The translations under genes and the position numbers were made by a program. A stretch of 32,572 nucleotides of DNA. Source: Campylobacteraceae bacterium (GTDB lineage Bacteria > Campylobacterota > Campylobacteria > Campylobacterales > Campylobacteraceae). The notes under the pieces are model-generated. The model did no database searches. It saw nothing but the letters and a program-made list of their open reading frames with translations, and was not told the origin of the DNA. Location of the stretch: positions 1 through 32,572 of the forward strand of contig JAISQB010000050.1 of the NCBI GenBank assembly GCA_031274495.1, read 5' to 3'. Shown here in pieces: positions 17,213-32,391 of this stretch (position 1 is the stretch's first letter; each line of letters opens with the position of its first letter).

Positions 17213-19462
17213 TTACCTTTTTAAAAGTTGATTTAAGTATTCCGTACTGCCCGGGACGGGAGCGCGCTCCGGCTTTGCTTCTGTTTGGATGCCGCTCTCT
17301 TTTACCGCTTTAACATCTTTTGCGGGTTGGCTCTCTCTGACAGGGTTGCTCTCTTTGACAAATCCGTTCTCTTTTATAGGCTTGCTCTCTTTTATGACCT
17401 TATTTTCTTGGACCGGCTTACTCTCTTTTACAACTTTGTTCTCTTGAACTGGTTTGTTCTCTTTTATAACCTTGCTCTCCTGGACGGGCTTACTATCTTT
17501 TATGGGTTGGATATCTATTGGCTTACTCTCTTTTGTAGGCCTACTTTTTTTTGCCGCCTCTTGGCGCGCAAGTTCTTGACGGACTAACTCATTGTGAAAT
17601 TCTTTACTGTAAGCGTCTTGTATCATATCAAGTTCGGCAAGCTGGCTTCTTAAAGCGGAGAGATCTTCGCTTGAGTCAACGATATAGGGCGTTAAAACGA
17701 TGACGATATTTGTCTGGTCGTCCGTATTTGCCTTATGTGTGAACAATCGTCCCAAAAGCGGAATGTCACCAAGCAACGGCACTTTAGAGTCGTTCTCCGT
17801 TTTTTTGTTACGGATAAGTCCTCCTACGATAACGCTTTCGCCATGTTTAACGATAGCCCTTGTCGTAACTTCGCGTTTTGTGGTTGTAGGCATACCGCTA
17901 TCTCCGCCGCTGCCGTCCAAAACATCTTCCACTTTAGCTTCTATCTGAAGAGCTACTTTACCGTCGCTTGAGATACGGGGCTTTACTTGAAGAGTCAAGC
18001 CTATATCTTCTCTTGAGTAAGTGTTGCGAGTCAAATCTGTCGTGCTGTCCGCATTTGTCGTACTTGTGATGATAGATTGTGTCTGTCCGACATATATTTT
18101 GGACTCCATGTTATTTAAGCACAAAACGGACGGTTCGGATACGATATTTGCCGCACCGTTTGTCTTCAGAAAGTCTATTGCCGCGCCGAACGCCAAGCCT
18201 GATTTGAGATTTCCGACATCAAACGCATTGCTAAGAGCAGTGCCAAGCAAAGATGAGAGTGAAAAAGCCGACCCACCCATATTCATAGCAAATGTATAAA
18301 GTCCGTCCGAAGTAGCGCGTCCGCCCTCAAGTCCGTATCGTATACCTATGCGTTTTGAAGCGCTGTCGCTTATCTCTATAATTCTCGCTTTAACAAATAC
18401 CTGTTTTTGTTCTTTGTCAAGGTCGGTTATGATATTTTTTATGATCTCAAAATCCTTTTGTGAAGCCAATACTACGATAGAGTTACTAGCCTCATCAAGA
18501 GATAGTATCGGTTTGTTAGCCTCCGCAGCAGCAGCAGGGGTGGGCTTTATCGTTTGATTGCCGCCTGATGGAGCGATGAGCTGGCTTGATGAGACAAGTT
18601 CGGAGACGATTTTAAATATATCTTTTGCTTCGGTATTATTTAACTGTATCACTCTTGCGCTTACCTGCAAGCTCTGCTGCTCTTTGTCGAGATTTGCTAC
18701 TACCCTTTTCAATCTATCTATATTCTCTTTTGAACCAACCGCGATGACGCCGTTGTCGGCTTTATTTTCATAAAGCGCTACGCGCTCGCTCTCGATCTTT
18801 TCGTTAAATATATCTTTTGAGATAGATTGCAAGACAGGAAAAACCTGCTCTATATCGACTCGTGTTAGCTGTATAAAGACAACCTCCGCCGCGCCGTTTT
18901 TCTCCATGATGCTTACTATCTTTTTTATCGTCTCTATATTCTTTGGAAAATCGGTAATTATGAGCGTATTGCTCTCTCTTATCGTTGTGATTTTGGCAGC
19001 AAGAGAGGCTAAGTGCCTTATCTTATTTGCGACCTCATCGACATTTGAGCCCTTCACGGGAACTATCTGCGTAACCATCTGCGTATATTGGTCAGCCCCT
19101 TTGCTTAGTACAGGCAGATTGTATTGCGCCGCGTTGTTGTTGCGCACTACCTCCAGATATGTGCCGTGGTCAACCATAGTATAACCTTTGGATGCGAGCA
19201 CAGATTGCAAGATAAGCGGCAAATCTTTTTTGTTCACAGGCGCCGCGGAGACAAACTCTACCTTGCCCGGAATTGCATCTTGCAAAAGCACATTTTTGCC
19301 AAGTACGTTGGATACGAGACGTATGAAGTCGGTTATCTCCAAATCCCTGAAGTTTATCTCAACACTTTGACTACTTGGCTGCGGTCTTGCCGCTTCCTGA
19401 GCGCCGAGCATGGCGCAACTTATGACAAACACCCCTAGTAGTATTGCCCTAACGAATCTCAT
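17213..19462 (-). CDS. gspD: Type II secretion outer-membrane secretin GspD
   Basis: Outer-membrane channel of the secretion system, 749 residues from the ATG at 19462, which has AAAGGA at eight bases; a TTG six bases further up is less well spaced. After a signal peptide (FVRAILLGVFVISCAMLGAQ; VISC could be a lipobox) come the N0 domain (VEINFRDLEITDFIRLV), the N1-N3 ring domains and the secretin core with VGGLIRNKKTENDSKVPLLG and DIPLLGRLFTHK. The last 110 residues are unusual: eleven or more six-residue units of the type KPVQEN/KVIKES, then a short end EYLNQLLKR. The tail could bind a pilotin or peptidoglycan. No pilotin gene is visible here. Confidence 0.95.
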   Translation of the reverse strand: MRFVRAILLGVFVISCAMLGAQEAARPQPSSQSVEINFRDLEITDFIRLVSNVLGKNVLLQDAIPGKVEFVSAAPVNKKDLPLILQSVLASKGYTMVDHGTYLEVVRNNNAAQYNLPVLSKGADQYTQMVTQIVPVKGSNVDEVANKIRHLASLAAKITTIRESNTLIITDFPKNIETIKKIVSIMEKNGAAEVVFIQLTRVDIEQVFPVLQSISKDIFNEKIESERVALYENKADNGVIAVGSKENIDRLKRVVANLDKEQQSLQVSARVIQLNNTEAKDIFKIVSELVSSSQLIAPSGGNQTIKPTPAAAAEANKPILSLDEASNSIVVLASQKDFEIIKNIITDLDKEQKQVFVKARIIEISDSASKRIGIRYGLEGGRATSDGLYTFAMNMGGSAFSLSSLLGTALSNAFDVGNLKSGLAFGAAIDFLKTNGAANIVSEPSVLCLNNMESKIYVGQTQSIITSTTNADSTTDLTRNTYSREDIGLTLQVKPRISSDGKVALQIEAKVEDVLDGSGGDSGMPTTTKREVTTRAIVKHGESVIVGGLIRNKKTENDSKVPLLGDIPLLGRLFTHKANTDDQTNIVIVLTPYIVDSSEDLSALRSQLAELDMIQDAYSKEFHNELVRQELARQEAAKKSRPTKESKPIDIQPIKDSKPVQESKVIKENKPVQENKVVKESKPVQENKVIKESKPIKENGFVKESNPVRESQPAKDVKAVKESGIQTEAKPERAPVPGSTEYLNQLLKR
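17294..17530 (-). repeat. 18-bp tandem repeats encoding the GspD tail
   Basis: On the minus strand imperfect 18-base units encode six-residue repeats such as KPVQES, KVIKEN, KPVQEN, KVVKES, KPVQEN, KVIKES, KPIKEN, NPVRES and KAVKES. The pattern is small-Pro/Val-x-K/Q-E-N/S-K. At least eleven units are countable at 17294-17491, fading on both sides. The repeat number could vary between strains by slippage without breaking the frame. Confidence 0.8.
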
Positions 19463-20315
19463 ACTCAAAATCCTTTTTTATATTGTTTCGCATCACCTCA
19501 ATCCTCACTCTACTGTAAGTTTTGGCGTTGTTGTATATCTCCAGCACCCTTGAATAGTTATCAAGCTGTACGCCGTTAAAACTCGTGATAATATCCCCCG
19601 CACGCAAACCAAGCTTCGCAAAAGGTGAATTTCTATTAACACTAAGCACCCTAAACCCCTCCAGTTTACCATTTCTTACAACCTCTTTAAATCCTATATT
19701 TTTAAAGACCGAGTCGGGATTGTCAAGAAATTGGTTAAGCTCTCCCTTTTGGATAACATTTGAGTACTCCTCCATATTTGGCTGTCCGGCAGCCTGCGAC
19801 GCCAGAAGCTCCTGCTCTATCCTCATATCGCGCGCCAATAAAGTCGCCCCCGATGGCGGACCAATGATAGCGGATGCCGGCGGAGCGGGGTTTAGCGTAC
19901 CCTTCGCAAATCCCACCCAAAATTGTCTGCCGCTCTCAGTCAAAAATATACCGTCGGACTTTATCTCGCTCAATTTATATCGCCCTAAATTTTCGCCCTC
20001 TTTCAAAATCTTTACTTCGCTCCCCTCTTGTACCACAGCAAAACCTTTATCGCCCTTTACCTCTCTATAGACGGCTATTAGTTTTATATCTTCCACCGGC
20101 GTAACGACTTGCGTCGCGGATGCGGTAGCATCGCCCCTTGGTCCAAAAATAGTACCGTAAGCGTTTAAGTTTGGAATGACCTCTCCTTTTGGCGTATCTA
20201 CGCCGCTTTTTGGTAAGGAGATGTATATAGCCAAACCTATAATTTTTGCAACGGCAAGCAAAATAAAAATTTTAAAAATAAGACTAAGTGTTTGGCTATT
20301 TAAACGATAGTTCAT
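19449..20315 (-). CDS. gspC: Type II secretion inner-membrane protein GspC with PDZ domain
   Basis: Links the inner-membrane platform to the secretin, 288 residues. One N-terminal membrane helix (KIFILLAVAKIIGLAIYISL) is followed by a Pro-rich linker, then a homology region (KLIAVYREVKGDKGFAVVQE) that contacts the secretin N0 domain. A C-terminal PDZ domain (FRVLSVNRNSPFAKLGLRAG, DIITSFNGVQL) may bind substrates. The stop lies just inside gspD. The ATG at 20315 overlaps gspN by 20 bases. Presence of GspC separates this from type IV pilus and simple competence systems. Confidence 0.88.
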   Translation of the reverse strand: MNYRLNSQTLSLIFKIFILLAVAKIIGLAIYISLPKSGVDTPKGEVIPNLNAYGTIFGPRGDATASATQVVTPVEDIKLIAVYREVKGDKGFAVVQEGSEVKILKEGENLGRYKLSEIKSDGIFLTESGRQFWVGFAKGTLNPAPPASAIIGPPSGATLLARDMRIEQELLASQAAGQPNMEEYSNVIQKGELNQFLDNPDSVFKNIGFKEVVRNGKLEGFRVLSVNRNSPFAKLGLRAGDIITSFNGVQLDNYSRVLEIYNNAKTYSRVRIEVMRNNIKKDFEYEIR

Positions 20316-20820
20316 ACACTAACCTCCCATCAACATTTTTAAAATTCGAATTTAGCATAGGATATCTTCTCGCAAAATCCGATGCGGGGTTTAGCGTAAG
20401 GGATATCTTTTTACTAAAAATACTATAACTGCCCGATATACTGCCAAATCCCCCTTCCCCTTTCAAAAAAACTTTTGTCGGATAAAATGGCGTATATAAA
20501 GCGTTTATGCGTTCTACTTGGGGCACAAAATTTTGCAGATTTTTAGATGGATTGGCGGATGCTAACGCTACTTTGTTATACAAAATGCCAAAAAACGCAT
20601 CTATCTGTCCTATGCGTGCAACACTGTCACCAAGATAAAGCACATCTATACCACTTAAATCCAACCCGAAAAGCCCCTCTTTTGTACTCTCTTCGTTCAA
20701 GGAAATCCCTTTCTCAAAGAGTTTGTTCTCGAAAAAATAGTAGATATTCTCTTTGGGCAAAAATGCCATCAGCATTACGAAAAAAAGCACAGAGAAGAAA
20801 ATAAATTTTATGATTTTCAT
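20296..20820 (-). CDS. gspN: GspN-like inner-membrane protein of the type II system
   Basis: A 174-residue protein with one N-terminal membrane segment (FIFFSVLFFVMLMAFLP) and a periplasmic domain with GLFGLDLSGIDVLYLG and repeated beta-strand-like segments. This resembles GspN/AsmA-like proteins. It lies between gspM and gspC, overlapping gspM in an ATGA and gspC by 20 bases. GspN is an accessory subunit absent from many systems. The assignment rests on topology, size and position more than on strong motifs. Confidence 0.6.
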   Translation of the reverse strand: MKIIKFIFFSVLFFVMLMAFLPKENIYYFFENKLFEKGISLNEESTKEGLFGLDLSGIDVLYLGDSVARIGQIDAFFGILYNKVALASANPSKNLQNFVPQVERINALYTPFYPTKVFLKGEGGFGSISGSYSIFSKKISLTLNPASDFARRYPMLNSNFKNVDGRLVYELSFK

Positions 20821-21194
20821 TTTTTTATCTCCATAACTACGCGGTAGGTCGATTCGCTCTCCGCAATAAATTCAAATTTTCTTATCTCAAAAGCCTCCGT
20901 AATAGCTTTTCTCATAAATTCATTTGCTTCAGCGCGTGATAAAACGCCGCTTTTTACTTCAAATACCGCCGCCTTATCGCTCACCTGACCAAAAAGCGTC
21001 CGCAGCCTCTCTTCCAAGGACTCTTTATTCCACATCTTCTTTAAAGCACTCACCTTTTTTGCCTCTTCCTCAAACGCAACAAGATTTTTTGCTTCAAGCG
21101 GCAGAGCCAAACGCCCATGGGAAGCTTTCACAAAAAGTGCTATAAACACCACAAAAATAATGCCCAGTAAAACAAAAGGATTGATCTTATTCAT
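20817..21194 (-). CDS. gspM: GspM-like inner-membrane platform protein
   Basis: A 125-residue bitopic protein: short cytoplasmic N terminus, one membrane helix (FVLLGIIFVVFIALFV), a helical segment and a ferredoxin-like C-terminal part. It follows gspL with an 8-base overlap and precedes gspN with an ATGA. GspM proteins are small, poorly conserved partners of GspL in the platform; topology, size and order support this call. Confidence 0.65.
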   Translation of the reverse strand: MNKINPFVLLGIIFVVFIALFVKASHGRLALPLEAKNLVAFEEEAKKVSALKKMWNKESLEERLRTLFGQVSDKAAVFEVKSGVLSRAEANEFMRKAITEAFEIRKFEFIAESESTYRVVMEIKK

Positions 21195-22158
21195 AGCGCA
21201 TCTCTATTATAATATTTTTGCCGTCATTTCTTAATGACACATCTTTGAAAAAATTCCCGTAGTAGCTTTTAAAGTACTCTTCCCTGCTCCTATCCGCACG
21301 GATAATTAAAGAGACTTTAAGCTCGTCGATTTTAATGCTTTCAAAGCGCTCCCCCTGATTAAAGGATGTTTGAAGTATATGAGAGAACGCATCTCTGAAA
21401 GATTTTTGAACTCTATTTATATTTTCATATTCTTTTGCCAATGCGTTTAACTGAAGCGATGTCGAAGGTAGCGAATAAAGAGCCAAAACCTCTTTCTCCT
21501 GCACTTCAAATTTGCCCCTAAGAGAGCTTGTGTAGTATATATCTATAAGTGCCAACAATATTAAGAACAGCAAAATATATACAATGCCGAGCGCCCCTTT
21601 TTTCTCGTAAAAACGGTTGAATTTGCCCAATTTTATCCTGTGCTGCGAAAGCGTGTGAAACGAGAGTACCTTATCTACACTCGTATGCTCTTTCGCGATG
21701 GAGAGCGGCACCTTTATCAATTTACCGTTTTGATTTAAAATGGCCGATTTGGAGTCTATCTTTATCGGCAACGGACATTCGGAAAACTCTGTTTGCGCAA
21801 AGTAGACATTTTCTATTTGGGATGATTTGACGCCAAGGCGCTCTAATTCCTCCAAAATAGCCTTCGCGTCATACGCAAAAAGTGTAAATTTATCCGCACT
21901 TTTTATGACTTTGTAGGAATAATTCCCATCCTGTACTACACCTTCAAACAGCGATGGGGCGTACTCCTTGGCTTGAAACAGATATTTTACCGGGAGTGTC
22001 TCGTGTCTTACCCAGTAAAATTTCGGCGAAAGTATAATATTTGCCGTCGCCGACTCTCTTATAAATACCGCGGATGAATCTACAAAAATAGTCTCCACAC
22101 GCCTGCCCCTCTTTGCGCTGTTTAACTCTCTGTAAAATTTACTAAAAAACTGTTTCAA
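21187..22158 (-). CDS. gspL: GspL-like inner-membrane platform protein
   Basis: A 323-residue bitopic protein with a cytoplasmic N-terminal domain of about 200 residues. A membrane helix (LGIVYILLFLILLALIDIYY) is followed by a periplasmic domain with a helix and a ferredoxin-like fold, as in GspL, which recruits GspE and pairs with GspM. The cytoplasmic part is shorter and more diverged than in gamma-proteobacterial GspL. The start is TTG at 22158, overlapping gspK by 17 bases with only a weak ribosome binding site; no better start is near. Confidence 0.7.
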   Translation of the reverse strand: MKQFFSKFYRELNSAKRGRRVETIFVDSSAVFIRESATANIILSPKFYWVRHETLPVKYLFQAKEYAPSLFEGVVQDGNYSYKVIKSADKFTLFAYDAKAILEELERLGVKSSQIENVYFAQTEFSECPLPIKIDSKSAILNQNGKLIKVPLSIAKEHTSVDKVLSFHTLSQHRIKLGKFNRFYEKKGALGIVYILLFLILLALIDIYYTSSLRGKFEVQEKEVLALYSLPSTSLQLNALAKEYENINRVQKSFRDAFSHILQTSFNQGERFESIKIDELKVSLIIRADRSREEYFKSYYGNFFKDVSLRNDGKNIIIEMRYE

Positions 22159-23017
22159 TATAGCTCACTTTCTTCGTTGTAATATCGTACATAAACGAAA
22201 ACGTTTTTTGCTCGTCCAAATATGAAAGATTCACCGCACAAATCACACTCAGCACGCCAACATCAATACCCAACTTATCAAACGCTACTCTCGCATCATT
22301 TGACAAGTTTAAATCATCAATCCCGGAGATAGACCCCAATTCGGCGTGATAAGTGAAATTATACTCTTTTTCTATTAATTTTAACAATGGCTCTTTAATA
22401 TAGTTAAAGTCAACTTTATCCCCATAGAAGCCTATCAAATCTTTCCATGGGACTTCGTATATCGCGGCATCACCGCCGTTTGCAACATAGTGATCAAGTA
22501 AAAAATTAAACGCCTCCCACGAATAGATACCACCATCCTCAAATAGTTCACTGTCTAAAGCGGCTTCGCTCATGTAAGCTCTCTGGTTTCTATCTTTATC
22601 TATGGCGTCCAAAAGTATCTGTAAGAAAAAATTTGAGTTTGTAACATGGTATTCGTAAAGGGCACTTTGCAAAAGATTGTAAAAAAAGCTATTAGTCTCA
22701 TTTTGGTTTAAAAGTTTATTTATATTTATCACTCCGGCAGCTGAACTTATATCGACAAAGGCGTTGATATTCTCATCGCTTATCATGATAGGCAACCCTA
22801 TGATGATGGAAAGCGAATCTTTATCTTTGATATCTTTTGTGTTCTCCTGCAAAATCTTTAGTATATCAAGAAAGGTCTTATTAAGCTGCGTGGAGATATT
22901 GATCTCATTTAGCCTCGTGAAATATTTTTGAGAAATCGTAACGCTTTTTAGGACCAACAGCGAGAGTATCAGTATGAGCCCCACAGTCGTAAGCAGCGCT
23001 ATTCCTCTTCTGTTCAT
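22142..23017 (-). CDS. gspK: Type II secretion minor pseudopilin GspK
   Basis: A 291-residue large minor pseudopilin that caps the pseudopilus. The N terminus MNRRGIALLTTVGLILILSL has Gly at -1 and, as is usual for GspK, no Glu at +5. The body has SSAAGVININKLLN and LDAIDKDRNQRAYMSEAALD, matching the GspK helical domain (SAM-like). The length is normal for GspK. The ATG at 23017 lies 10 bases after gspF. Confidence 0.85.
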   Translation of the reverse strand: MNRRGIALLTTVGLILILSLLVLKSVTISQKYFTRLNEINISTQLNKTFLDILKILQENTKDIKDKDSLSIIIGLPIMISDENINAFVDISSAAGVININKLLNQNETNSFFYNLLQSALYEYHVTNSNFFLQILLDAIDKDRNQRAYMSEAALDSELFEDGGIYSWEAFNFLLDHYVANGGDAAIYEVPWKDLIGFYGDKVDFNYIKEPLLKLIEKEYNFTYHAELGSISGIDDLNLSNDARVAFDKLGIDVGVLSVICAVNLSYLDEQKTFSFMYDITTKKVSYIETVF

Positions 23018-23027
23018 CTGGCGCCTC

Positions 23028-24242
23028 TCACGAAATATTCATAGAAAATATAGGCAAAAGCATCGAAGTGATGATAAGCCCGATTAACGCGCCCACTACG
23101 AGCATCAAAAGAGGTTCCAGTAACGATAAAAACAGGGCGATTTTGTCTCTATTTTCCTCAAAATAGAGCGCTGAGAGATTTTGCAATACCAAAGAGACTT
23201 CGCTTGTCTCTTCGCCCAGAGTGACCGCTTGCACAAAAGAGTTGCTAAGTTTATAATCAGACTTTAAAAGCGCGGAAGAGAGGCGCGAACCCTCCACTAC
23301 CTTTAGCGAAGCTTTATCAAAAACATCAGCTATGACACTATTTTTCAAAATACCAAATCCAAGCCGCACCGTTTTTACAAAAGGCACTCCCGACTTTATC
23401 AGCACGGAGGCGATATATGTAAATCTGCCAAGCTCGGAGGATTCGATGATTTTCCCAAAAAACGGCATCTTCAACATCAAAAAGTCGTATGTGTATTTTG
23501 CCTTTTTATTGACGGCAAGCAGAGCTTTGATGCCCAAAACGATTAAAATTATAGCCACGATAGCATAAAACCAAAACTGCGACAACCAATCCCCAATGGC
23601 TATGATGATCTGCGTTATCTTGGGCAGTTCTTGATTCATCTGTTCAAATATCGAGCTGATTTTCGGCACCACATAAGCTATCATAAAGCCAAGCATAAAG
23701 CCCGAGATTAGTAAAATAAACATAGGGTATGCGAAAGCGTTTTGTATCTGCTTGTTTAGTCTCTCCTGCTCTTTTAAAAAGCGCGAAAGTTCCAAAAGTA
23801 TCTCGTCTAAGATACCGCTCTCTTCGGATACTTTGATGGACTGTTTAAAAAATATAGGAAGTTTAAAGACAGTCTGATTTTCGAGCGCGAAATAGAAATT
23901 TTTGCCCTCATCAAGAGAGTTTTTAAGACTACTTAAGAAAAGTGACATTTTTTTATTGTTGACATATTGGTTTGAGGAGAGCGCCACGGCATCCACCAAA
24001 GAGATGCCTGACTTCAGATAGATACTTATATCGCGGCAAAACCACGCGAGCTCGCCCGAACTAATCTTATAGCGGCGCTTAAAGCTTATCTTGCTGAAAA
24101 GCGTGAATTGCTCCTCTTGGAGCTTTTTATATATGATGCCTGCGGCTTTTAGCCTCTTTTTGGCGTCATCAAGGCTGTTTGCTTCTATCTTAGAGCTGAC
24201 TTTTGAGCCTGTTTTATCGATTCCGGAGTATTTAAATATCAA
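23028..24242 (-). CDS. gspF: Type II secretion inner-membrane platform protein GspF
   Basis: Polytopic platform protein, 404 residues, with two repeated cytoplasmic domains. Segments: FKYSGIDKTGSKVSSKIEA at the start, LAWFCRDISIYLKSGISLVD, then membrane helices FILLISGFMLGFMIAYVVP, WFYAIVAIILIVLGI and LLMLVVGALIGLIITSMLLP, with FTYIASVLIKSGVPFVKTV in the second repeat. The start is TTG at 24242 with AAGG at six bases; there is no nearer ATG that keeps the conserved FKYSG start. Confidence 0.93.
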   Translation of the reverse strand: MIFKYSGIDKTGSKVSSKIEANSLDDAKKRLKAAGIIYKKLQEEQFTLFSKISFKRRYKISSGELAWFCRDISIYLKSGISLVDAVALSSNQYVNNKKMSLFLSSLKNSLDEGKNFYFALENQTVFKLPIFFKQSIKVSEESGILDEILLELSRFLKEQERLNKQIQNAFAYPMFILLISGFMLGFMIAYVVPKISSIFEQMNQELPKITQIIIAIGDWLSQFWFYAIVAIILIVLGIKALLAVNKKAKYTYDFLMLKMPFFGKIIESSELGRFTYIASVLIKSGVPFVKTVRLGFGILKNSVIADVFDKASLKVVEGSRLSSALLKSDYKLSNSFVQAVTLGEETSEVSLVLQNLSALYFEENRDKIALFLSLLEPLLMLVVGALIGLIITSMLLPIFSMNIS

Positions 24243-24245
24243 ATC

Positions 24246-24788
24246 TTACCTTCCTCTTACTTCAAGCTGTTTTTCTTCCAAATAGTCACTTGCTTCATTT
24301 AAATTTGCAAACACCTTTCCCTCTTCCATATAATTTTCCAGCAGATAAAATCTATCTCGATACTCCAACACTACCTTATCGGCGCTACCGTTAGGATAGA
24401 CATTGTATGAAAAACAGACCCTCTCTCTTTTGCGATCCTCTCTATAATAATCGTCATATATTATCCTATCAAGCCGCTTCCCGTCGTACTTGTAGGCTAT
24501 AGGCTCAAAACCCTTCTCAAAAAGTTCTATGGTCTTGTTCGTATCGACACCGTTAAGCAACACGTGGCAATACGAACAGTCATCAACACACTTCAAAGAG
24601 ACTTTTGCTTTGTTGCCGCCTAAACTCTCAAGCAGATAGAGGTTGAGCTTTTCAAGCTTTACCTCCTCTTCGTAAGGGTCGCTTTTAAAGGCAAAATTTT
24701 GCATAAACAACCCATATGTGATAACCAGCAAAAGCATCACAAGTAAAAGTTCAAACAGCGTAAATCCGCCTTTTCTTACTCTTCGCAT
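24246..24788 (-). CDS. gspH: Type II secretion minor pseudopilin, GspH-like
   Basis: A 180-residue prepilin: RRVRKGGFTLFELLLVMLLL has a positively charged leader, Gly at -1 and Glu at +5. A globular part has Cys pairs (LKCVDDCSYCHV) that may form disulphides. It overlaps gspG by 13 bases and directly precedes gspF. The usual gspG-gspH order gives the letter; the sequence alone shows only a pseudopilin. Confidence 0.7.
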   Translation of the reverse strand: MRRVRKGGFTLFELLLVMLLLVITYGLFMQNFAFKSDPYEEEVKLEKLNLYLLESLGGNKAKVSLKCVDDCSYCHVLLNGVDTNKTIELFEKGFEPIAYKYDGKRLDRIIYDDYYREDRKRERVCFSYNVYPNGSADKVVLEYRDRFYLLENYMEEGKVFANLNEASDYLEEKQLEVRGR

Positions 24789-25195
24789 TTGCTAAAATAT
24801 ATATCTGTGTTCTCATCCGTTCCGCCCTCGCGCCCATCCGCGCCCAACGAAACCAAATCAAAATCACCACCGCTTGGAATGTATATAAACTCGTTACCCC
24901 AAGAGTCTTTAGGAGGGCTTTTAACATCAAGATAGCCGCCGTTAGGGTACTTTTTATATTTGTTAGGATCCGGATTGGCGATGAGCGCTTTAAGCCCCTC
25001 GTCCATAGTCGGAAAATTGCCGAAATCCATTCTAAACATTTTAACAGATTCAGCAATAGTCTTCATCTGGATACACACAAGTTTTTGCTTAGCCTGCTCT
25101 GATTTGCCCAAGAGATTCGGCAAAACAAGCGTTGTAAGAAGTCCCAAAATGATAATAACCACCATAAGTTCCATAAGCGAAAAAGCTTTTTTCAA
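24776..25195 (-). CDS. gspG: Type II secretion major pseudopilin GspG
   Basis: Major subunit of the pseudopilus, 139 residues from TTG at 25195. That start is chosen because GGAGG lies five bases upstream and it gives the short leader KKA before FSLMELMVVIIILGLLTTLV. A GTG at 25207 would put the ribosome binding site inside the gene. The residue at -1 is Ala, and Glu is at +5. The C-terminal half has the GspG signatures YPTMDEGL-like (FPTMDEGLKALIANPDP), KYPNGGYL and KDSWGNEFIYIPSG, plus a calcium-site-like LGADGREGGTDENTDI. It is the first gene of the operon. Confidence 0.93.
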   Translation of the reverse strand: MKKAFSLMELMVVIIILGLLTTLVLPNLLGKSEQAKQKLVCIQMKTIAESVKMFRMDFGNFPTMDEGLKALIANPDPNKYKKYPNGGYLDVKSPPKDSWGNEFIYIPSGGDFDLVSLGADGREGGTDENTDIYFSKCEE

Positions 25196-25231
25196 ATATT
25201 CCTCCACATAAATTAAAACTGTAAAATTGCT

Positions 25232-25899: not shown

Positions 25900-25924
25900 T
25901 TTTACTATGGTGGAAGTGAGGGGA
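25900..25924. repeat. Left attachment site (displaced ssrA 3' end)
   Basis: 25-bp copy of the ssrA 3' end and following bases, identical to 32011-32035 and in the same orientation. The match continues outward for about five bases (GGTGA) if one T is gapped. It contains 17 bases of tmRNA sequence including the CCA end but no upstream tRNA-like part, so it is a fragment left by integration, not a gene. Confidence 0.9.
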
Positions 25925-26016: not shown

Positions 26017-26033
26017 CTACCCTATGGCTACCC
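26017..26033 (+). repeat. Terminal repeat TACCC-N6-TACCC, left copy
   Basis: The 17-base CTACCCTATGGCTACCC occurs here, 92 bases inside the left att site. It occurs again at 31880-31896, about 115 bases inside the right att site, in the same orientation. It is itself two TACCC half-sites 11 bases apart. This fits an arm-type integrase or excisionase binding site. Confidence 0.6.
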
Positions 26034-26123: not shown

Positions 26124-26372
26124 ATGAGTGAGATAGTAAAAGGTGTTGAAAACAACGATAATAAAACGCTTGTTTTGATAGATAAAGATGAGTGTTTAAA
26201 AAAACTCTTTAGTTGCTCTTGTATCCTTGCTACGCTAAGGCTTGCCACTAAATATGAAGATGAAATTGAAAGCATATATGTAGATGAAGTGATAAAGCCT
26301 GTTGAAGATATTCTTCATAACATATATGATGAGATTGAATTTCGCACGCCTAAAGGTGGGGGCGGGGTTTAA
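26124..26372 (+). CDS. Small protein of unknown function, only plus-strand gene
   Basis: An 82-residue soluble, acidic protein from the ATG at 26124, chosen because GGAGGG lies upstream at good spacing. It contains LVLIDKDECLKKLFSCSCIL then ATLRLATKYEDEIESIYVDE and ends in a Gly-rich GGGGV. Mostly helical by eye, with no membrane segment. I do not recognise the family. It is transcribed toward the lipoprotein gene, opposite to the rest of the element, so it is an independent unit. In phage satellites genes placed like this near an att site are often cargo, such as phage-interference or toxin genes, but nothing in the sequence shows that here. Confidence 0.65.
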   Translation: MSEIVKGVENNDNKTLVLIDKDECLKKLFSCSCILATLRLATKYEDEIESIYVDEVIKPVEDILHNIYDEIEFRTPKGGGGV

Positions 26373-26412: not shown

Positions 26413-26454
26413 TAGGCGGCGCGTGATGTTTTATAAGTCTTTAGCCGCCTCTTT
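26413..26454 (+). terminator. Candidate terminator after the small plus-strand gene
   Basis: Inverted repeat AGGCGGC (26413-26419) with GCCGCCT (26444-26450), followed by CTTTT on the plus strand. The loop is long (24 bases), which weakens the case. The right arm lies within the last codons of the convergent lipoprotein gene. Confidence 0.4.
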
Positions 26455-27099
26455 TAGCTTTGCCTGCTCCTTTTCTTTTGCTTGCCTTTCAGCTTCTAAG
26501 CGGATTTTTTCAGCAGGTTCTGCCGCCAATTTTGATAATTTAGAACTCTTTATAATCATACTACATTCAGAGTTTTTATAACAAGATGTGTTAAGTTTCC
26601 CACCGCCCCTTGTAATATATAAAAAGCTTGGAAAGGCTTTTGAGTAACTTCTATATTCTATGTTTTCTACTATTTTATCGCCCTCCATTCTGTATCCGCT
26701 CGTGTAACTTTCGGAATATGTATCTTCATAGTCAAAAAAGCTTGTGCCATACTTTTTTTTAATTGTTTGTAGTATCTTGTTGTTATTGCTTCTATTATGC
26801 AGTGTTTCATTCCCTTTAGAAAACTCATCATATTTTATTTCAGTCCAATAAAATTGGTTATCAAAAAAACGATATTCTATGCTCCTTAAATCCACCTCGC
26901 CTATCTTTAAAAGCTCATCTTTTTTGGTGGCTATCACCTCTTTTGAGGTTTTGTTATCGCTTATAATGGTGTGATTGCCAAGCTTTTCTATAGGCTCACC
27001 CCACTTCATATCACGAAAGCCAACGATGGGACTATTACCAAAGCAACCGCTAAACATAATACCCACTACAACCAGTAGCAAAAAACTAACCTTTTTCAT
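26431..27099 (-). CDS. Lipoprotein of unknown function, possible element cargo
   Basis: A 222-residue exported protein from the ATG at 27099, which has GGGGG at good spacing; a longer frame upstream lacks this. The signal peptide MKKVSFLLLVVVGIMFSGC ends in a lipobox with Cys at residue 19. The mature part opens VGFRDMKWGEPIEKLG, a pattern (F-x-x-x-KWG) seen in small periplasmic domains. It has several Tyr/Phe-rich strands, one Cys pair (TSCYKNSEC) and a charged helical tail (EKIRLEAERQAKEKEQAK). No function is recognised. Lipoproteins carried by prophages and satellites sometimes block superinfection; here that is only a guess from context. Confidence 0.7.
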   Translation of the reverse strand: MKKVSFLLLVVVGIMFSGCFGNSPIVGFRDMKWGEPIEKLGNHTIISDNKTSKEVIATKKDELLKIGEVDLRSIEYRFFDNQFYWTEIKYDEFSKGNETLHNRSNNNKILQTIKKKYGTSFFDYEDTYSESYTSGYRMEGDKIVENIEYRSYSKAFPSFLYITRGGGKLNTSCYKNSECSMIIKSSKLSKLAAEPAEKIRLEAERQAKEKEQAKLKEAAKDL

Positions 27100-27217
27100 A
27101 AAAGCCCCCTTGATGTTTATTTTCGTAAATTGTACATCTGAAAATGTTGATGATGTGTAAATTTGGGGGCAAAAAGGCAAGGACTATGACAAAAACAACT
27201 GACAAAATTTGGTTACA

Positions 27218-27240
27218 TTTGTTAATGTTTTTGTTGCTAA
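27218..27240. repeat. Iteron-like direct repeat, copy 1
   Basis: 23 bases beginning TTGTTAATGTTTTTGTTG, repeated at 27284-27306 with one mismatch (GCTAAA versus GTTAAA). Only two clear copies are seen, with AT-rich related sequence nearby. Confidence 0.55.
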
Positions 27241-27283
27241 AACCGTTGGTAATACGGGCTTTTGAGCATAAAAACAGTTTATT

Positions 27284-27306
27284 ATTGTTAATGTTTTTGT
27301 TGTTAA
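27284..27306. repeat. Iteron-like direct repeat, copy 2
   Basis: Second copy of the repeat at 27218-27240, same orientation, start-to-start distance 66 bases (about six helical turns). Confidence 0.55.
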
Positions 27307-27517
27307 AGTAAGGGCAAAAACGCTCCAAAGGCTGAAAGGTAAGCCGTTTTGTCTTGCCTTTGTCATAGTTTTTGTTTTAAAAAGTTTGGCGCGCATAAAA
27401 TCTTTGCTATATGCGCGGTACTGCGGGGCGGGGTCTGTAGAGATTTAACCCGCCCCTCCCTATGGTGTTTGGTGTCATACTTTGTAACACTGACTATGCC
27501 ACTTATCAAAGACTATA

Positions 27518-28024
27518 TCAAGGCGTGATAGCGTCTGTTTTGCTTGTCTGCGGTGCTGTATCGCTTTGTATGGCGTCTTTGTCTTGTTGGGTAGGCGCTT
27601 GTGTGTCTGTACCGTTATCTCTTTTAAAGGGGCGGTAGAGACCACTCAAAAAGGCTTTTAAGCCATCTATCCACCAAAGCGAAACACTATGTGTTTTTGT
27701 TTGCTCCTTGAGCTTCATTTGCCCTCTGGCGCGTGGATTAAGTCCAAGCCTATCAGAATAGGCTATGACTATCTTTTCGCACTTAAAGGCTAACTCTACG
27801 TTTTGATAGTTGATAGATAAGTTTTGCGGTGTAACTTTTATTGCCTCATTGAGTAGGCAATTGCAAAGCACCGAATAACGAACAAACCGTTTTATTACCT
27901 TTTGGTCTAACCGTTCGGTGATAACTCCTGTTTGCTCTAACTCTTTTGTAACATCTTGTTCTAACTCTCGCACAAGCTCATCAAACCCCGTTTGCTCTTC
28001 TTGCTGTTTTATTTCTTTTTTCAC
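27518..28024 (-). CDS. TerS-like protein 2 (P27-type small terminase domain, no HTH)
   Basis: A 168-residue protein paralogous to the C-terminal half of its upstream neighbour. It starts at GTG 28024 with AAGGAG six bases upstream. The shared core runs KELEQTGVITERLDQKVI, then AFKCEKIVIAYSDRLGLNPR and ARGQMKLKE. The layout 'leader helix - G-(V/L)-(I/L)-T-x-x-D - Y - LGL-x-P-x-AR' is the signature of P27-family phage small terminase subunits, which choose the DNA to be packaged. Unlike copy 1 it lacks the N-terminal helix-turn-helix. It has its own tail: WWIDGLKAFLSGLYRPFKRD plus a Thr/Gln/Asp-rich end. DNA identity to copy 1 is about 89 percent over 27703-27797. Family call is from memory of the pattern. 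Confidence 0.65.
   Translation of the reverse strand: MKKEIKQQEEQTGFDELVRELEQDVTKELEQTGVITERLDQKVIKRFVRYSVLCNCLLNEAIKVTPQNLSINYQNVELAFKCEKIVIAYSDRLGLNPRARGQMKLKEQTKTHSVSLWWIDGLKAFLSGLYRPFKRDNGTDTQAPTQQDKDAIQSDTAPQTSKTDAITP
27703..27797 (-). repeat. Duplicated terS-core segment (partner 28142-28236)
   Basis: A 95-base direct repeat at an offset of 439 bases with about ten differences counted by eye. A second conserved block lies near 27898-27952 and 28351-28405. It marks a tandem duplication inside the element with later divergence at both ends of the protein. Confidence 0.75.
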
Positions 28025-28088
28025 TTCATACTCCTTAGAATATTATTTGTATAAAGGCTTGCCATTAAGCAAAGCCACCTTAAACCTA

Positions 28089-28724
28089 TTACCTTTTTAT
28101 TATCCATTTCATCACGCCGCTATCATCATCCACCTCTTCTTGTTCCTTGAGCTTCATTTGACCTCTGGCGCGTGGATTAAGTCCCAGTCTATCGGAATAG
28201 GCTATGATTATCTTTTCGCATTTGAGGGCAAACTCTGCATAACGGTGAATGGTAGATAAGCGCTGTGGTGTAACTTCCGTGAAGTCTTGCTTAGCTGCCT
28301 CTTTGAGTAGATAATCACGGAGTGTTGAGTAGTAGCAAAACTGCTCTATTGCCTTTTGGTCTAACCGTTCGGTAATAACTCCTGCTTGCTCTAACTCTCT
28401 TGTAACGCTAAAACTAAGCTCTTTAGCCTTTGGGGCTATGATTACCTGTATCTCTGATAAGGTTCTAAAGCGGTTGGCTTTTACGGGATAAGCGTCTTGT
28501 TTTGCTTTTTCTATGTCACCGCCAAGCTTTTTAATCGTTTCAGCGTTTATAAATAGCTTGTTGCCCCTCCTTATGGTTTCTAACTCACCGCTTTTGATTA
28601 GCCTCCATACAGTCCGCTCTGTCTTTTCAAGTGCCGTAGCGGTCTCTTTGATGGTTAATTCAACCTCTTTTTTGCCTCCTTTGCTCTTAAGTGAAATAGT
28701 AGTTGCGTTGTTATTGTCAATCAT
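28089..28724 (-). CDS. TerS-like protein 1: helix-turn-helix fused to P27-type small terminase domain
   Basis: A 211-residue protein from the ATG at 28724, set by AGGAGG six bases upstream and an ATGA overlap with the rep stop; a longer frame upstream lies within rep. Residues about 20-70 form an HTH_17/MerR-like domain (LTIKETATALEKTERTVWRL, then GELETIRRGNKLFI). Residues about 95-195 carry the small terminase pattern: IIAPKAKELSFSVTRELEQA, GVITERLDQKAIEQF, and AYSDRLGLNPRARGQMKLKE. Small terminases bind pac/cos sites through an N-terminal DNA-binding domain; an excisionase-type helix-turn-helix in that place is unusual. In satellites a private TerS redirects the helper phage's packaging motor. 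Confidence 0.68.
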   Translation of the reverse strand: MIDNNNATTISLKSKGGKKEVELTIKETATALEKTERTVWRLIKSGELETIRRGNKLFINAETIKKLGGDIEKAKQDAYPVKANRFRTLSEIQVIIAPKAKELSFSVTRELEQAGVITERLDQKAIEQFCYYSTLRDYLLKEAAKQDFTEVTPQRLSTIHRYAEFALKCEKIIIAYSDRLGLNPRARGQMKLKEQEEVDDDSGVMKWIIKR

Positions 28725-29599
28725 TTTTTGCCTCCTTTTTGGGCTATTTTTGGCTGTAAACTTAAATCGCCTTTTGAATGCCGTTGTGGTGGGGGTTTGT
28801 GGCTTGTTTGTGTTGCATTTTGTACCAATATACTTAATAGACACCAGTCCACCTGAAACTTAAGGCGCGGTTTTAATGTTTTTTGTGTAGCTTGACCGCG
28901 CTTTTTTTGAGGCTCATTACTAAATGCTTTTTGGATGGTCTTATTACACGCTGCGATAACCTCATTGATACTATCTAATCTTTTAAGCCTTGCCTTACAA
29001 AATGAAAACTCCAGACGATAACAAATGTGTTTGGCTTTGTCTGTCTTATGATAGTGTTTCACATTGTAGTACGTGTTTGTCCGCCCCTCTTTGGCTGTTT
29101 TTAAGTAGATGGTATTCCAACGGCGGTATAGCTCTCTTTTGAGCCTGTGGGCTATTGTAGATACATTAAAGGGCTTGTTGCTATCAAAGGCTATATCAAG
29201 GCGTGAGAATTTGAAGCTATCTTGTCCGATGAGGTTAATAACCTCTTGCAAATCTTCACACATAGGAGCGTCAAAGAGGTTATATTGTTTTAAGCCTTGA
29301 AATGTTAGCGTGTAATCCTTTTGGCGTTTATGCTGCGTGATTTTATACCTACAACCTCGCGGGCTTATTAAGATAGCCAAATAAGAGTAAAGCGCAGGTT
29401 TAAATGCGTTTTGTGGCTTTTTGCCTTTTGCTTTAACACTTGCTTTGCCTCTTTTGGGCTTGAAATAGTCGTTTATAAGCTCTTGGTTAAAGACAAGGTG
29501 ATTTTTAACGGTCATCATCTTAAAGCCTGCCGCAGTGCGTAACTTATCCAAAATGGTATCATTAAAATCAAGAGCCACACTATCAATAAAGCCTCTCAT
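28721..29599 (-). CDS. Rep_trans-type replication initiation protein
   Basis: A 292-residue protein. It has the features I associate with Rep_trans/phage-type rolling-circle initiators: DSFKFSRLDIAFDSNKPFN (R-x-D-x-A-x-D motif), then NTIYLKTAKEGRTNTYYNVK with YHKTDKAKHICYRLEFSFCK, corresponding to the T-I-Y...Y-x-K...R-x-E-x segments of the family. The nicking Tyr is probably one of the Tyr residues in the TIY or YYNVKHYHK stretch. The C-terminal 90 residues are basic and of unknown role. The ATG at 29599 overlaps the preceding gene by 17 bases; the stop overlaps TerS-like 1 in an ATGA. It would allow the excised element to replicate. Confidence 0.7.
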   Translation of the reverse strand: MRGFIDSVALDFNDTILDKLRTAAGFKMMTVKNHLVFNQELINDYFKPKRGKASVKAKGKKPQNAFKPALYSYLAILISPRGCRYKITQHKRQKDYTLTFQGLKQYNLFDAPMCEDLQEVINLIGQDSFKFSRLDIAFDSNKPFNVSTIAHRLKRELYRRWNTIYLKTAKEGRTNTYYNVKHYHKTDKAKHICYRLEFSFCKARLKRLDSINEVIAACNKTIQKAFSNEPQKKRGQATQKTLKPRLKFQVDWCLLSILVQNATQTSHKPPPQRHSKGDLSLQPKIAQKGGKK

Positions 29600-29810
29600 T
29601 GCAAAGGGCTAAAAACTCTTTAGCCCTTTTGTTGCTGATAATGCAAAATATACGGTGGTTACCCTGCCAAATTGCGCCGCAAATGCCATCATCTCTTAAC
29701 TGCTTTAGGTAGAGATTGGCGTTTGAGATGTCAAACTCTTTGGCTGTTACCCATACGCGCTGTTTCATTGCTTTTAAGAGCGTGAGTTTGTGTTTTAGTG
29801 CTTTGCTCAT
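29583..29810 (-). CDS. Small winged-helix-like protein
   Basis: A 75-residue basic protein from the ATG at 29810, with GAGGTG upstream. Residues about 15-60 read MKQRVWVTAKEFDISNANLY, LKQLRDDG and IWQGNHRIFCI, which looks like a winged helix: recognition helix followed by a beta hairpin. It stands between the AlpA-like gene and rep with 8- and 17-base junctions, so it belongs to the same transcript. A role as replication accessory or regulator is likely from position; the family is not recognised. Confidence 0.6.
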   Translation of the reverse strand: MSKALKHKLTLLKAMKQRVWVTAKEFDISNANLYLKQLRDDGICGAIWQGNHRIFCIISNKRAKEFLALCNERLY

Positions 29811-29818
29811 AGTTCACC

Positions 29819-30016
29819 TCAACTTGCCGTCTTAGTTAGGTGTTGCTCCATAAACTTTGTAAGTTCGCTTATGGGGTATAAAACCTTTGAGTTTTTGCCC
29901 TTGCCGCTTTTAAAATAGCGTGCGCCTAATCCATTAGACCTTAACCGCTGAAGTGTCGTTGTCGAAATGCCAAGATATTCCGCCGCTTCTTTGGGTGTCA
30001 AAGTCATTTTACCCAT
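29819..30016 (-). CDS. AlpA-like helix-turn-helix regulator/excisionase
   Basis: A 65-residue protein from the ATG at 30016, with AAAGGA upstream. It is a single HTH_17 domain: MTLTPKEAAEYLGISTTTLQ RLRS, then a basic wing GARYFKSGKGKNSKVLYPIS and a helix ELTKFMEQHL. AlpA-type proteins act as excisionases and as activators of integrase or replication genes in prophages and Gram-negative satellites. It is the first gene of the alpA-HTH-rep-terS-terS block. The terminal TACCC repeats near both att sites are plausible targets. Confidence 0.75.
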   Translation of the reverse strand: MGKMTLTPKEAAEYLGISTTTLQRLRSNGLGARYFKSGKGKNSKVLYPISELTKFMEQHLTKTAS

Positions 30017-30224: not shown

Positions 30225-30788
30225 TTAGTCTGGGTCAAGGTGTTTTATAAGCTCTGTTATAGCGCTATTGCTAACATTATGAGACTTTAAAAACTTGCGT
30301 ATCGGTTCAACATTGGCTTTTATTTTGAGTATGTGGTTTGGAAAGTACTTATCAATATCTTGTATATATCTATCAATATCACTTATAAGCTGCTCTCTTT
30401 TGTTGGAATATGAAAGGACTTCTAAATCCTCTCTTATTGCTCTAAACCTTTCAATATTGATTTGCCGTATCTTTTCTATAGAGCGATTTTGTAGCTTTTG
30501 TTTGTGGGCTTTCGTTGGGGCGGTAAAAGCTTTCCATATCTCTTTTGTTCCCTTTGCGGTTAGATAATCAAAAATCATTGCGATAAGCTCTTTGAGTATC
30601 TTTTTTTTATTTCTTTCGCTTCGGCTTTCAATGTGATAATGCCACCCCATTAAAAAATCAATCGTTTTATCGTCTATTTTGCTTTTTACCTCTTCTATGG
30701 GCAACTTTTTTATTGTTTTTTTAATAAACAGCTCTATATTATCTTTGGGTGCGTTTTTAAACATTAAAACTAAATCATTAAAATTCAT
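30225..30788 (-). CDS. Unknown 187-residue helical protein coupled to the integrase
   Basis: A basic, almost fully helical protein with no membrane segment or signal peptide. Segments: MNFNDLVLMFKNAPKDNIEL, TIDFLMGWHYHIESRSERNK and a long helix region around SIEKIRQINIERFRAIREDL, likely coiled coil. No family recognised. Its ATG overlaps the integrase stop in an ATGA, so it is made together with the integrase. Candidate roles, from position only: recombination directionality, replication control, or interference with a helper or competing phage. Confidence 0.7.
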   Translation of the reverse strand: MNFNDLVLMFKNAPKDNIELFIKKTIKKLPIEEVKSKIDDKTIDFLMGWHYHIESRSERNKKKILKELIAMIFDYLTAKGTKEIWKAFTAPTKAHKQKLQNRSIEKIRQINIERFRAIREDLEVLSYSNKREQLISDIDRYIQDIDKYFPNHILKIKANVEPIRKFLKSHNVSNSAITELIKHLDPD

Positions 30789-31861
30789 AGCCTTAGCCCC
30801 CTTACTGCGTCTAATCCATTATCAGAGGCAAGCTTCGCATATCTTAGTGTGTCTTTGATGTCTTTATGGTCTAAGAGCTTCATTATCGTAAATATCGGAA
30901 TGCCATTGATGGCTAAATGACTGGCGAATGTGTGGCGTAATGTGTGAATAACTACACGATTTTTTGTGTCTTTGTTGTTTAAACCTTGATTGAATAGTCT
31001 GTTTAGGGTTGTCTGTATCGGTCTTTCTATCGTGTGGTAATGGACGCCAACAACTTTATCATTTGGGGTGGATAGCTCTTTGAGGCGTTTTACCAATAGT
31101 GAGTAAAGACTATCACTAATAAAGCCCGTGTAGTCATTCTTTGCTTTAAAGTTTCGGAGATTAATACTTTTGGCGTTGAGATTAATATCTTTCTTTTGTA
31201 TTTCCATTATCGTGTTAAACCGCGCTCCAGTGCTTAATGACAACTCCACAAACAACAACCGCATTGGATGGTCTTTAACGGCTTCTTTGAGCTGCCTAAT
31301 CTCATTGACACTTAAATATCGGTCTCTTTTACTATCGCCTTTGGGCTTATCTACTTTTTTACAAGGATTAAGCCCCTTAAACAGCTCTCTATCAATCGCA
31401 AAGTTAAACACGGCGCTTATCCTTTGAAGATAGGTAATTACCGTTCGTGGAGCTTTACCGTTTGCCGTGAGGGTATTTTTTAGTTTATTGATAGTATCAA
31501 CAGTTATTTCGTCTAACTGGCTATTCCCAAAGATATTTTCAATAGCTCTGTACTGTGAAGCCACCTTTTTTACCAACTCCTTATGTTCTATATACTGACA
31601 AACAGCGTCTTTAAAAGTTACCCCATCCTTTTGTTTGTATTTGGCAAGCGGGGATATATCGCCAAATTTAGCTTTGTTGATAAACACATTTCTTTGTAGG
31701 TGGCAATAAGCTATATTTATATTTTCGCTCTCTTTGCCTATCTTTACCCACTTCTTTTTATTGCCATCTTTGTAAGTTATGTAAAAACTCTTATCGCCAT
31801 TGATAAGGTTTTTGTGATATATGCCATCATATTTAGTACTACTTTTGATGTAACCGCTCAT
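30785..31861 (-). CDS. Tyrosine recombinase (integrase)
   Basis: Site-specific recombinase that integrates and excises the element, 358 residues. It has an arm-binding N terminus (FYITYKDGNKKKWVKIGKES), a SAM-like core-binding domain (about 80-170), and a catalytic domain with Arg214 in STGARFN, a Lys near 239-241, His306-x-x-Arg309 in HTLRHTF, His332 in LLDHKD and the nucleophile Tyr341 in TLRYAKL. All residues are intact. The ATG at 31861 has AAGGAG seven bases upstream. It is next to the ssrA att site and transcribed away from it, in the same direction as ssrA. Its own promoter lies just upstream. Confidence 0.93.
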   Translation of the reverse strand: MSGYIKSSTKYDGIYHKNLINGDKSFYITYKDGNKKKWVKIGKESENINIAYCHLQRNVFINKAKFGDISPLAKYKQKDGVTFKDAVCQYIEHKELVKKVASQYRAIENIFGNSQLDEITVDTINKLKNTLTANGKAPRTVITYLQRISAVFNFAIDRELFKGLNPCKKVDKPKGDSKRDRYLSVNEIRQLKEAVKDHPMRLLFVELSLSTGARFNTIMEIQKKDINLNAKSINLRNFKAKNDYTGFISDSLYSLLVKRLKELSTPNDKVVGVHYHTIERPIQTTLNRLFNQGLNNKDTKNRVVIHTLRHTFASHLAINGIPIFTIMKLLDHKDIKDTLRYAKLASDNGLDAVRGLRL

Positions 31862-31879: not shown

Positions 31880-31896
31880 CTACCCTATGGCTACCC
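31880..31896. repeat. Terminal repeat TACCC-N6-TACCC, right copy
   Basis: Identical 17 bases to 26017-26033. On the minus strand it reads GGGTA-N6-GGGTA and starts about two bases after the integrase -10 box, so it covers the transcription start. A protein bound here could both recombine the ends and repress the integrase gene. Confidence 0.6.
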
Positions 31897-32010: not shown

Positions 32011-32035
32011 TTTTACTATGGTGGAAGTGAGGGGA
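32011..32035. repeat. Right attachment site (ssrA 3' end)
   Basis: 25 bases identical to 25900-25924. Positions 32019-32035 are the 3' end of the tmRNA including CCA, and 32011-32018 lie just downstream. Integrases targeting ssrA typically use exactly this part of the gene. Confidence 0.9.
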
Positions 32036-32391
32036 ATTGAACCCCTGTCCAAAAACAAGCCCCATCTTGACGTCTACATGCTTAGAAGGATTGATAAATC
32101 TTTGCTTTTGTTTCACTCAATCCGCGAAGGCTACACAAAAGCGCAAACCTGAATGTCAGCCTGACGGCGGTTAGATGTCCGGCTTAAGCTATCTGTTTTT
32201 TGAGCCTTGCAAAACCCGCTTAGATAGCATCCGCGGTGCAAAGCCTCCTTAAGAGTTAAACTTACGCGATTTTTGCGTAAGCAGGAGCGTAATTTTTGTT
32301 ATTTGCGTCTAAATTTATGAACTTTTTACGCTCTGTTCAAAGCGGCATGCAATCAAGACCAACCTGCTCCTGTCGAAGCCAAGTCACTCCC
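32019..32391 (-). ncRNA. ssrA: Transfer-messenger RNA (tmRNA)
   Basis: Rescues stalled ribosomes by acting as tRNA-Ala and as mRNA for a degradation tag. The 5' end GGGAGTGACTTGG and the 3' end CACTTCCACCA pair as a seven-base acceptor stem (GGGAGUG with CACUUCC, one G-U). The T arm reads GGGGTTCAATTCCCC, and GGTTCGAATCC-like identity is clear. Length 373 bases. The tag frame at 32262-32306 reads ANNKNYAPAYAKIA followed by TAA. The gene is intact despite the element in its 3' end, because the att copy restores the sequence. It starts one base after the trpA stop codon. No terminator is visible downstream. Confidence 0.95.
32262..32306 (-). CDS. tmRNA proteolysis tag
   Basis: Fourteen codons from the resume codon GCA (32306-32304) to TAA: ANNKNYAPAYAKIA. 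The ANN start and APAYAK core fit epsilon-class tags. The C terminus is Ile-Ala instead of the Ala-Ala I remember from most species. Confidence 0.85.
   Translation of the reverse strand, partial: ANNKNYAPAYAKIA

Follow-up and report, generated by a model that had tools for sequence, protein, structure and literature searches.

The island and its genes

The window, i.e., the whole stretch of 32,572 nucleotides analysed here (contig JAISQB010000050.1 of a Campylobacteraceae bacterium), contains an island of ca. 6.1 kb at the 3' end of the tmRNA gene, which is bounded by identical 25-bp att repeats (Table 1). Its operon runs from the tyrosine integrase gene (int) through the genes for a 187-aa protein, an AlpA-like helix-turn-helix (HTH) protein, a small protein and a rolling-circle-type replication initiator (Rep) to a tandem pair of small terminase (TerS) genes, copy 1 and copy 2, which come last. 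Profile searches of the island detected no genes for the large terminase (TerL), portal or capsid, and its packaging set thus consists of TerS-type genes only. The initial annotation had placed the pair in a satellite-like context, a view that is borne out by the integrase, the AlpA-like HTH protein, Rep and the att repeats at the tmRNA gene. The adjoining part of the window (19449-25207) holds type II secretion or pseudopilin-type genes, judging by eye from the translations.

Table 1. Position of the features of the island in the window.
Feature	Position	Strand	Remarks
att repeat, int side	32011..32035		Overlaps the tmRNA gene (minus strand, 32019-32391) at its 3' end
17-bp repeat CTACCCTATGGCTACCC, int end	31880..31896		Inside the island; possible integrase arm site
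Tyrosine integrase (int)	30785..31861	minus	Profile matches
187-aa protein	30225..30788	minus	Overlaps int; no family match
AlpA/excisionase-like HTH_17 protein	29819..30016	minus	65 aa; profile matches
Small protein	29583..29810	minus	75 aa; a similarly laid-out small protein precedes rep in the sister islands
Rep, rolling-circle-type replication initiator	28721..29599	minus	292 aa; fold match to RepDE/RepSTK1
Copy 1, TerS	28089..28724	minus	211 aa; HTH_17 and P27-type (Terminase_4) small terminase
Copy 2, TerS paralogue	27518..28024	minus	168 aa; no HTH, 59-aa C-terminal tail
Noncoding stretch	27181..27517	minus	Strong hairpins; 18-bp repeat in direct orientation at 27219 and 27285; may be the origin of replication or the packaging site
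Putative lipoprotein, accessory	26431..27099	minus	No family match
82-aa protein near distal att	26124..26372	plus	A short ORF lies close to this end in the sister islands, too
17-bp repeat, second copy	26017..26033		Inside the distal end of the island
att repeat, distal	25900..25924		Identical 25 bp

Identity and divergence of the TerS pair

Copy 1 starts with an ATG that is preceded by AAGGAGG and overlaps the stop codon of rep, and copy 2 with a GTG located 6 bases downstream of AAGGAG; to judge from these sequences, both genes have a good ribosome-binding site. In copy 1, HTH_17 covers residues 23-65 (30.6 bits; Pfam cut-off 27) and Terminase_4 residues 106-197 (29.6 bits; cut-off 24.7), and a profile search with this protein against PHROG 83, terminase small subunit, gave an E-value of 1.2e-8. 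Copy 2 by itself scored only 15.6 bits (E 0.023) against Terminase_4, which is under the cut-off of 24.7; it is assigned to the TerS family because it is 61% identical to copy 1 (66 of 109 residues; 120 bits, E 2e-39). Also at the DNA level the repeats between the copies (137 nt with 82% identity and 69 nt with 90%) are far above chance. The two adjacent P27 small-terminase-like genes were previously proposed to represent a tandem duplication, with an HTH preceding copy 1 only and a separate C-terminal tail in copy 2, and the scores and identities obtained here confirm all of this. No better non-terminase profile match was encountered for the pair, an alternative that had been raised at the same time. 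The HTH of copy 1 and the AlpA protein of the island do not align, and a derivation of the former from the AlpA gene thus found no support.

The pairwise comparison of the copies yielded a dS of 0.81, from which we conclude that the duplication is not a fresh one, and an omega of 0.33 (bootstrap 0.19-0.55). The latter value implies that the copies diverged under purifying selection and rules out pseudogene status for copy 2, which the initial annotation had left to be checked.

The assignment to the small terminases is strengthened by a profile built from both copies, which matched a Campylobacter prophage small terminase (E 1.1e-6). The TerS genes of Campylobacter prophages have an HNH gene on one side and the gene of the large terminase on the other, and the CJIE4 phage records annotate the matching Campylobacter prophage gene as terminase small subunit. 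These proteins possess an HTH-like segment ahead of the Terminase_4 core, where HTH_17 is a sub-threshold Pfam match. Since CJIE4-type prophage TerS has it, the HTH-P27 fusion is ordinary in phages of these bacteria, and it is ruled out as a novelty of the island.

The AlphaFold (AF2) model of copy 1 is confident in the three-helix core only (mean pLDDT 56, with a poor HTH). For residues 97-188 the top fold match was the HK97 TerS (6z6e; Z 8.8, rmsd 3.2), a match with a modest model, for which helical structures may reach a Z of ~8 by chance; because unrelated helical rows score only slightly lower, we regard it as support and not as proof. Foldseek alone ranked the HK97 TerS 27th by E-value for copy 1, yet with the highest probability listed (0.69). 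The fold calls for copy 1 and Rep are based on the VIA ordering combined with sequence motifs (RLDIAFD, LEFSF) and are both graded modest; PDB sequence searches with TerS and with Rep returned no match.

The HK97 TerS ring, which is devoid of an HTH, reads DNA through N- and C-terminal helices contributed by adjacent subunits (PMC11331095). The layout of copy 2, with no HTH and a long tail, is similar, and it could be argued that the role of main, HK97-type TerS falls to copy 2, which would read DNA via its N- and C-terminal segments, whereas copy 1 would be an HTH regulator relieved of packaging. We deem this quite unlikely, as it is copy 1 that has the better Terminase_4 score and the full-length architecture of the known Campylobacter TerS.

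No close relatives of copy 1 beyond chance were detected among 199 relatives and in viral contigs and phage records, and the pair profile revealed none beyond chance in 398 relatives and viral contigs. A second island with a TerS pair was not found in the searched relatives, viral contigs and phage records, nor did our literature searches reveal a paper on paired TerS genes. Profiles of defence systems gave nothing beyond HTH-level or marginal matches.

Rep and the noncoding stretch

Rep has no Pfam match, and PF02486 (Rep_trans) is absent from both P0003 and the genome; the similarity is in fold only. The modelled fold of Rep is closest to the rolling-circle initiators RepDE and RepSTK1, which fill the top three rows with Z values of 8.1-8.5, and the top match in plain Foldseek was TBP. 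Resemblance to rolling-circle initiators, a superfamily that includes the relaxases NicK (ICEBs1) and Orf20 (Tn916), would also be expected for an integrative mobilizable element, in which Rep would act as a NicK-like relaxase for conjugation and the TerS-like proteins as DNA-binding accessories. However, profile searches of the island identified neither a coupling protein nor any other gene for conjugation, and in a Sulfurimonas genome the Rep module adjoins capsid and terminase genes (see below). To our knowledge, TerS proteins have no role in conjugation, and we consider a mobilizable element improbable.

The 18-bp direct repeat of the noncoding stretch is exact (the longest in 200 shuffles was 13), and the stretch is predicted to fold into a long imperfect hairpin and two more stems (z -5.7 relative to shuffles). 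In the initial annotation, 27184-27517 was put forward as the region bound by copy 1. The repeat and the strong hairpin agree with this proposal, but they fit a replication origin equally well; the stretch could thus serve as origin, as packaging site, or as both. The sister loci do not contain the repeat TTGTTAATGTTTTTGTTG, which, consequently, receives no support as a conserved origin or packaging site.

Sister islands, related elements and potential helper phages

Four sister islands occur in the genus, one of which (L043) is present in the same genome and the others (L045, L046, and L047) elsewhere; two genus members carrying sister islands are public MAGs, designated Campylobacteraceae bacterium. 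The sister islands share int (56-63% identity), the AlpA-like protein, the small protein and Rep with the island studied here, are ~5.2-5.9 kb in size, and have a tRNA-Met or tRNA-Ala gene as integration site, where repeats of 17-54 bp flank them. They also contain internal repeats resembling the 17-bp repeat of Table 1. None of the four harbors a Terminase_4 gene and, therefore, TerS is dispensable for the island family as such. The comparison of TerS copy number in related islands that had been proposed for the pair accordingly gave a count of zero in four out of four.

Further variation was observed among these loci. L043 (contig C18, 10589-16375) lies in tRNA-Met between 44-bp att repeats and encodes an NrdR-like zinc-ribbon protein in the place of TerS. 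The small gene ahead of rep occurs twice in L046 (8343-8905), and the Rep of L047 (9132-10039) is divided over two ORFs, so that this sister island may be decaying. A third Rep homologue in the same genome (L042, contig C90, 1-1567) is interrupted by the contig end; the three proteins encoded after Rep are of 63 aa (Cys-rich), 138 aa (with an HTH) and 88 aa. Considered as a TerS-like candidate, the 138-aa protein had no profile support.

Two loci in Sulfurimonas MAGs are related as well. L055 (JADGEZ010000006.1, 6663-14400) is an island of ~8 kb that encodes an integrase, an HTH protein, a transcriptional-regulator-like protein, a small protein, Rep and a 153-aa HTH protein; the last of these was also considered as TerS-like but lacked profile support. 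In L056 (JAUSKV010000338.1, 1035-8150) the genes for an HTH protein, a small protein and Rep are followed by those for adaptor, head closure, capsid, HNH, TerS, TerL and portal. This gene order is like that of capsid-forming PICIs and would tie the Rep module to phage satellites or, as the contig is short, to a prophage. The viral contigs with a related integrase yielded one, L078, that has its own TerL and a TerS-like gene and no relative of Rep.

The usual place of TerS is in a prophage, by HNH and TerL, and the pair might therefore be thought of as a remnant of a decayed prophage. This is very improbable in view of the intact att repeats, the compact operon without TerL or portal debris, the purifying selection between the copies, and the match in layout and size with the sister islands. 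Its own genome has no match to the TerL_ATPase, Terminase_6N or portal families, from which it follows that the TerS genes do not stem from a resident prophage of those types. A TerL of the TerL_ATPase family was found in none of 14 genomes of the genus, and some genus mates contain prophages with a Terminase_6N TerL and a different type of TerS. For this genus, no helper phage whose TerS is of the P27 type is known.

A potential packaging module

Established satellites mark their DNA with a TerS of their own, inhibit the TerS of the helper, or re-aim it (PMC6092414, PMC10690885). For the island we favour, with a probability of roughly 0.65, the interpretation that the gene pair is the packaging module of a minimal PICI/PICMI-like satellite, which would use its own TerS to redirect the TerL of a helper. 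Once a helper phage has infected the cell or has been induced, the island would be excised by its integrase together with the AlpA-like protein, after which Rep may amplify it into concatemers by rolling-circle-type replication. Copy 1, the complete HTH-P27 TerS, would then mark the satellite DNA and, as there is no TerL in the island, recruit the large terminase of the helper.

Copy 2 has kept the core, which would form the ring, but not the HTH. In the last stretch of the core (residues 165-195), 28 of 31 residues are identical between the copies and pN is 0.04, compared to a pS of 0.35; replacement changes fall in the mid-core and the tail and hardly in this stretch. That this stretch is strongly conserved in the two copies would fit a common partner surface, although gene conversion would give a similar pattern. 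Copy 2 might join the rings of copy 1, altering the number of HTH arms per ring and adding an HK97-like tail; we tentatively propose such mixed rings as its task, at somewhat less than even odds. More doubtful is the specific scheme in which paralogues with and without HTH form mixed rings whose ratio sets DNA specificity, or in which the HTH-less paralogue makes the TerS rings of the helper work for the satellite.

Alternatively, copy 2 may be a decoy that enters the TerS rings of the helper and spoils them, while copy 1 packages the satellite; the SaPI protein Ppi likewise blocks the helper TerS, though by other means. A protein that retains this core but not the HTH would be suited to such a function, and some SaPIs combine a TerS of their own with an inhibitor of the helper TerS (PMC10690885). 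Mixing with the helper TerS would, however, probably imply mixing with copy 1, to which copy 2 is 61% identical. We regard a decoy as unlikely.

If the pair is indeed a packaging module, a single duplicated gene could account for two of the functions by which satellites steal packaging, which would show a route from a satellite's own terminase to an interference protein. The island family would also add minimal satellites with a rolling-circle-type Rep to the Campylobacteraceae.

Comparison with known systems

The TerS of Campylobacter CJIE4-type prophages (PHROG 9452) resembles copy 1 in its N-terminal HTH, Terminase_4 core and length of ~211 aa. It differs in its low identity to copy 1 (~20%) and in its occurrence as a single copy by HNH, TerL and portal; an HTH-less paralogue was not seen. 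The HK97 small terminase (PDB 6z6e, 8pop) provides the best fold match for the core and lacks an HTH, as does copy 2, but is only 17% identical to copy 1 in the fold alignment and is a phage protein with its own TerL and HNH.

With PICIs in general the island has in common an att site and integrase, an AlpA-type regulator and replication module, and a packaging-redirection gene without structural genes. TerS-carrying PICIs (SaPIs and some Gram-negative PICIs; PMC6092414) likewise combine int, a regulator, a replication gene and a TerS without TerL. They are, however, usually larger and have a primase-type Rep and one TerS, in contrast to the 6.1 kb, rolling-circle-type Rep and two TerS of the island. 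The PICMIs of Vibrionaceae (PMC10803314) are similar in their minimal size, int, AlpA and replication gene, and for PICMI115 rolling-circle replication and packing as a concatemer have been reported (PMC10803314). Nevertheless, the characteristics that define PICMIs, i.e., integration by fis, a primase and no TerS homologue, are not those of the island, which has a tmRNA site, a rolling-circle-type Rep and TerS. Literature searches turned up no description of the island family, although one may still exist. Capsid-forming PICIs (cfPICIs) are represented in the comparison by the Sulfurimonas locus L056, which pairs a relative of the Rep module with capsid, HNH, TerS, TerL and portal; of the capsid, terminase and portal set, the island has the TerS genes only. 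A satellite carrying TerS is thus already known as a kind, whereas the combination of TerS genes with and without an HTH and a rolling-circle-type Rep is new.
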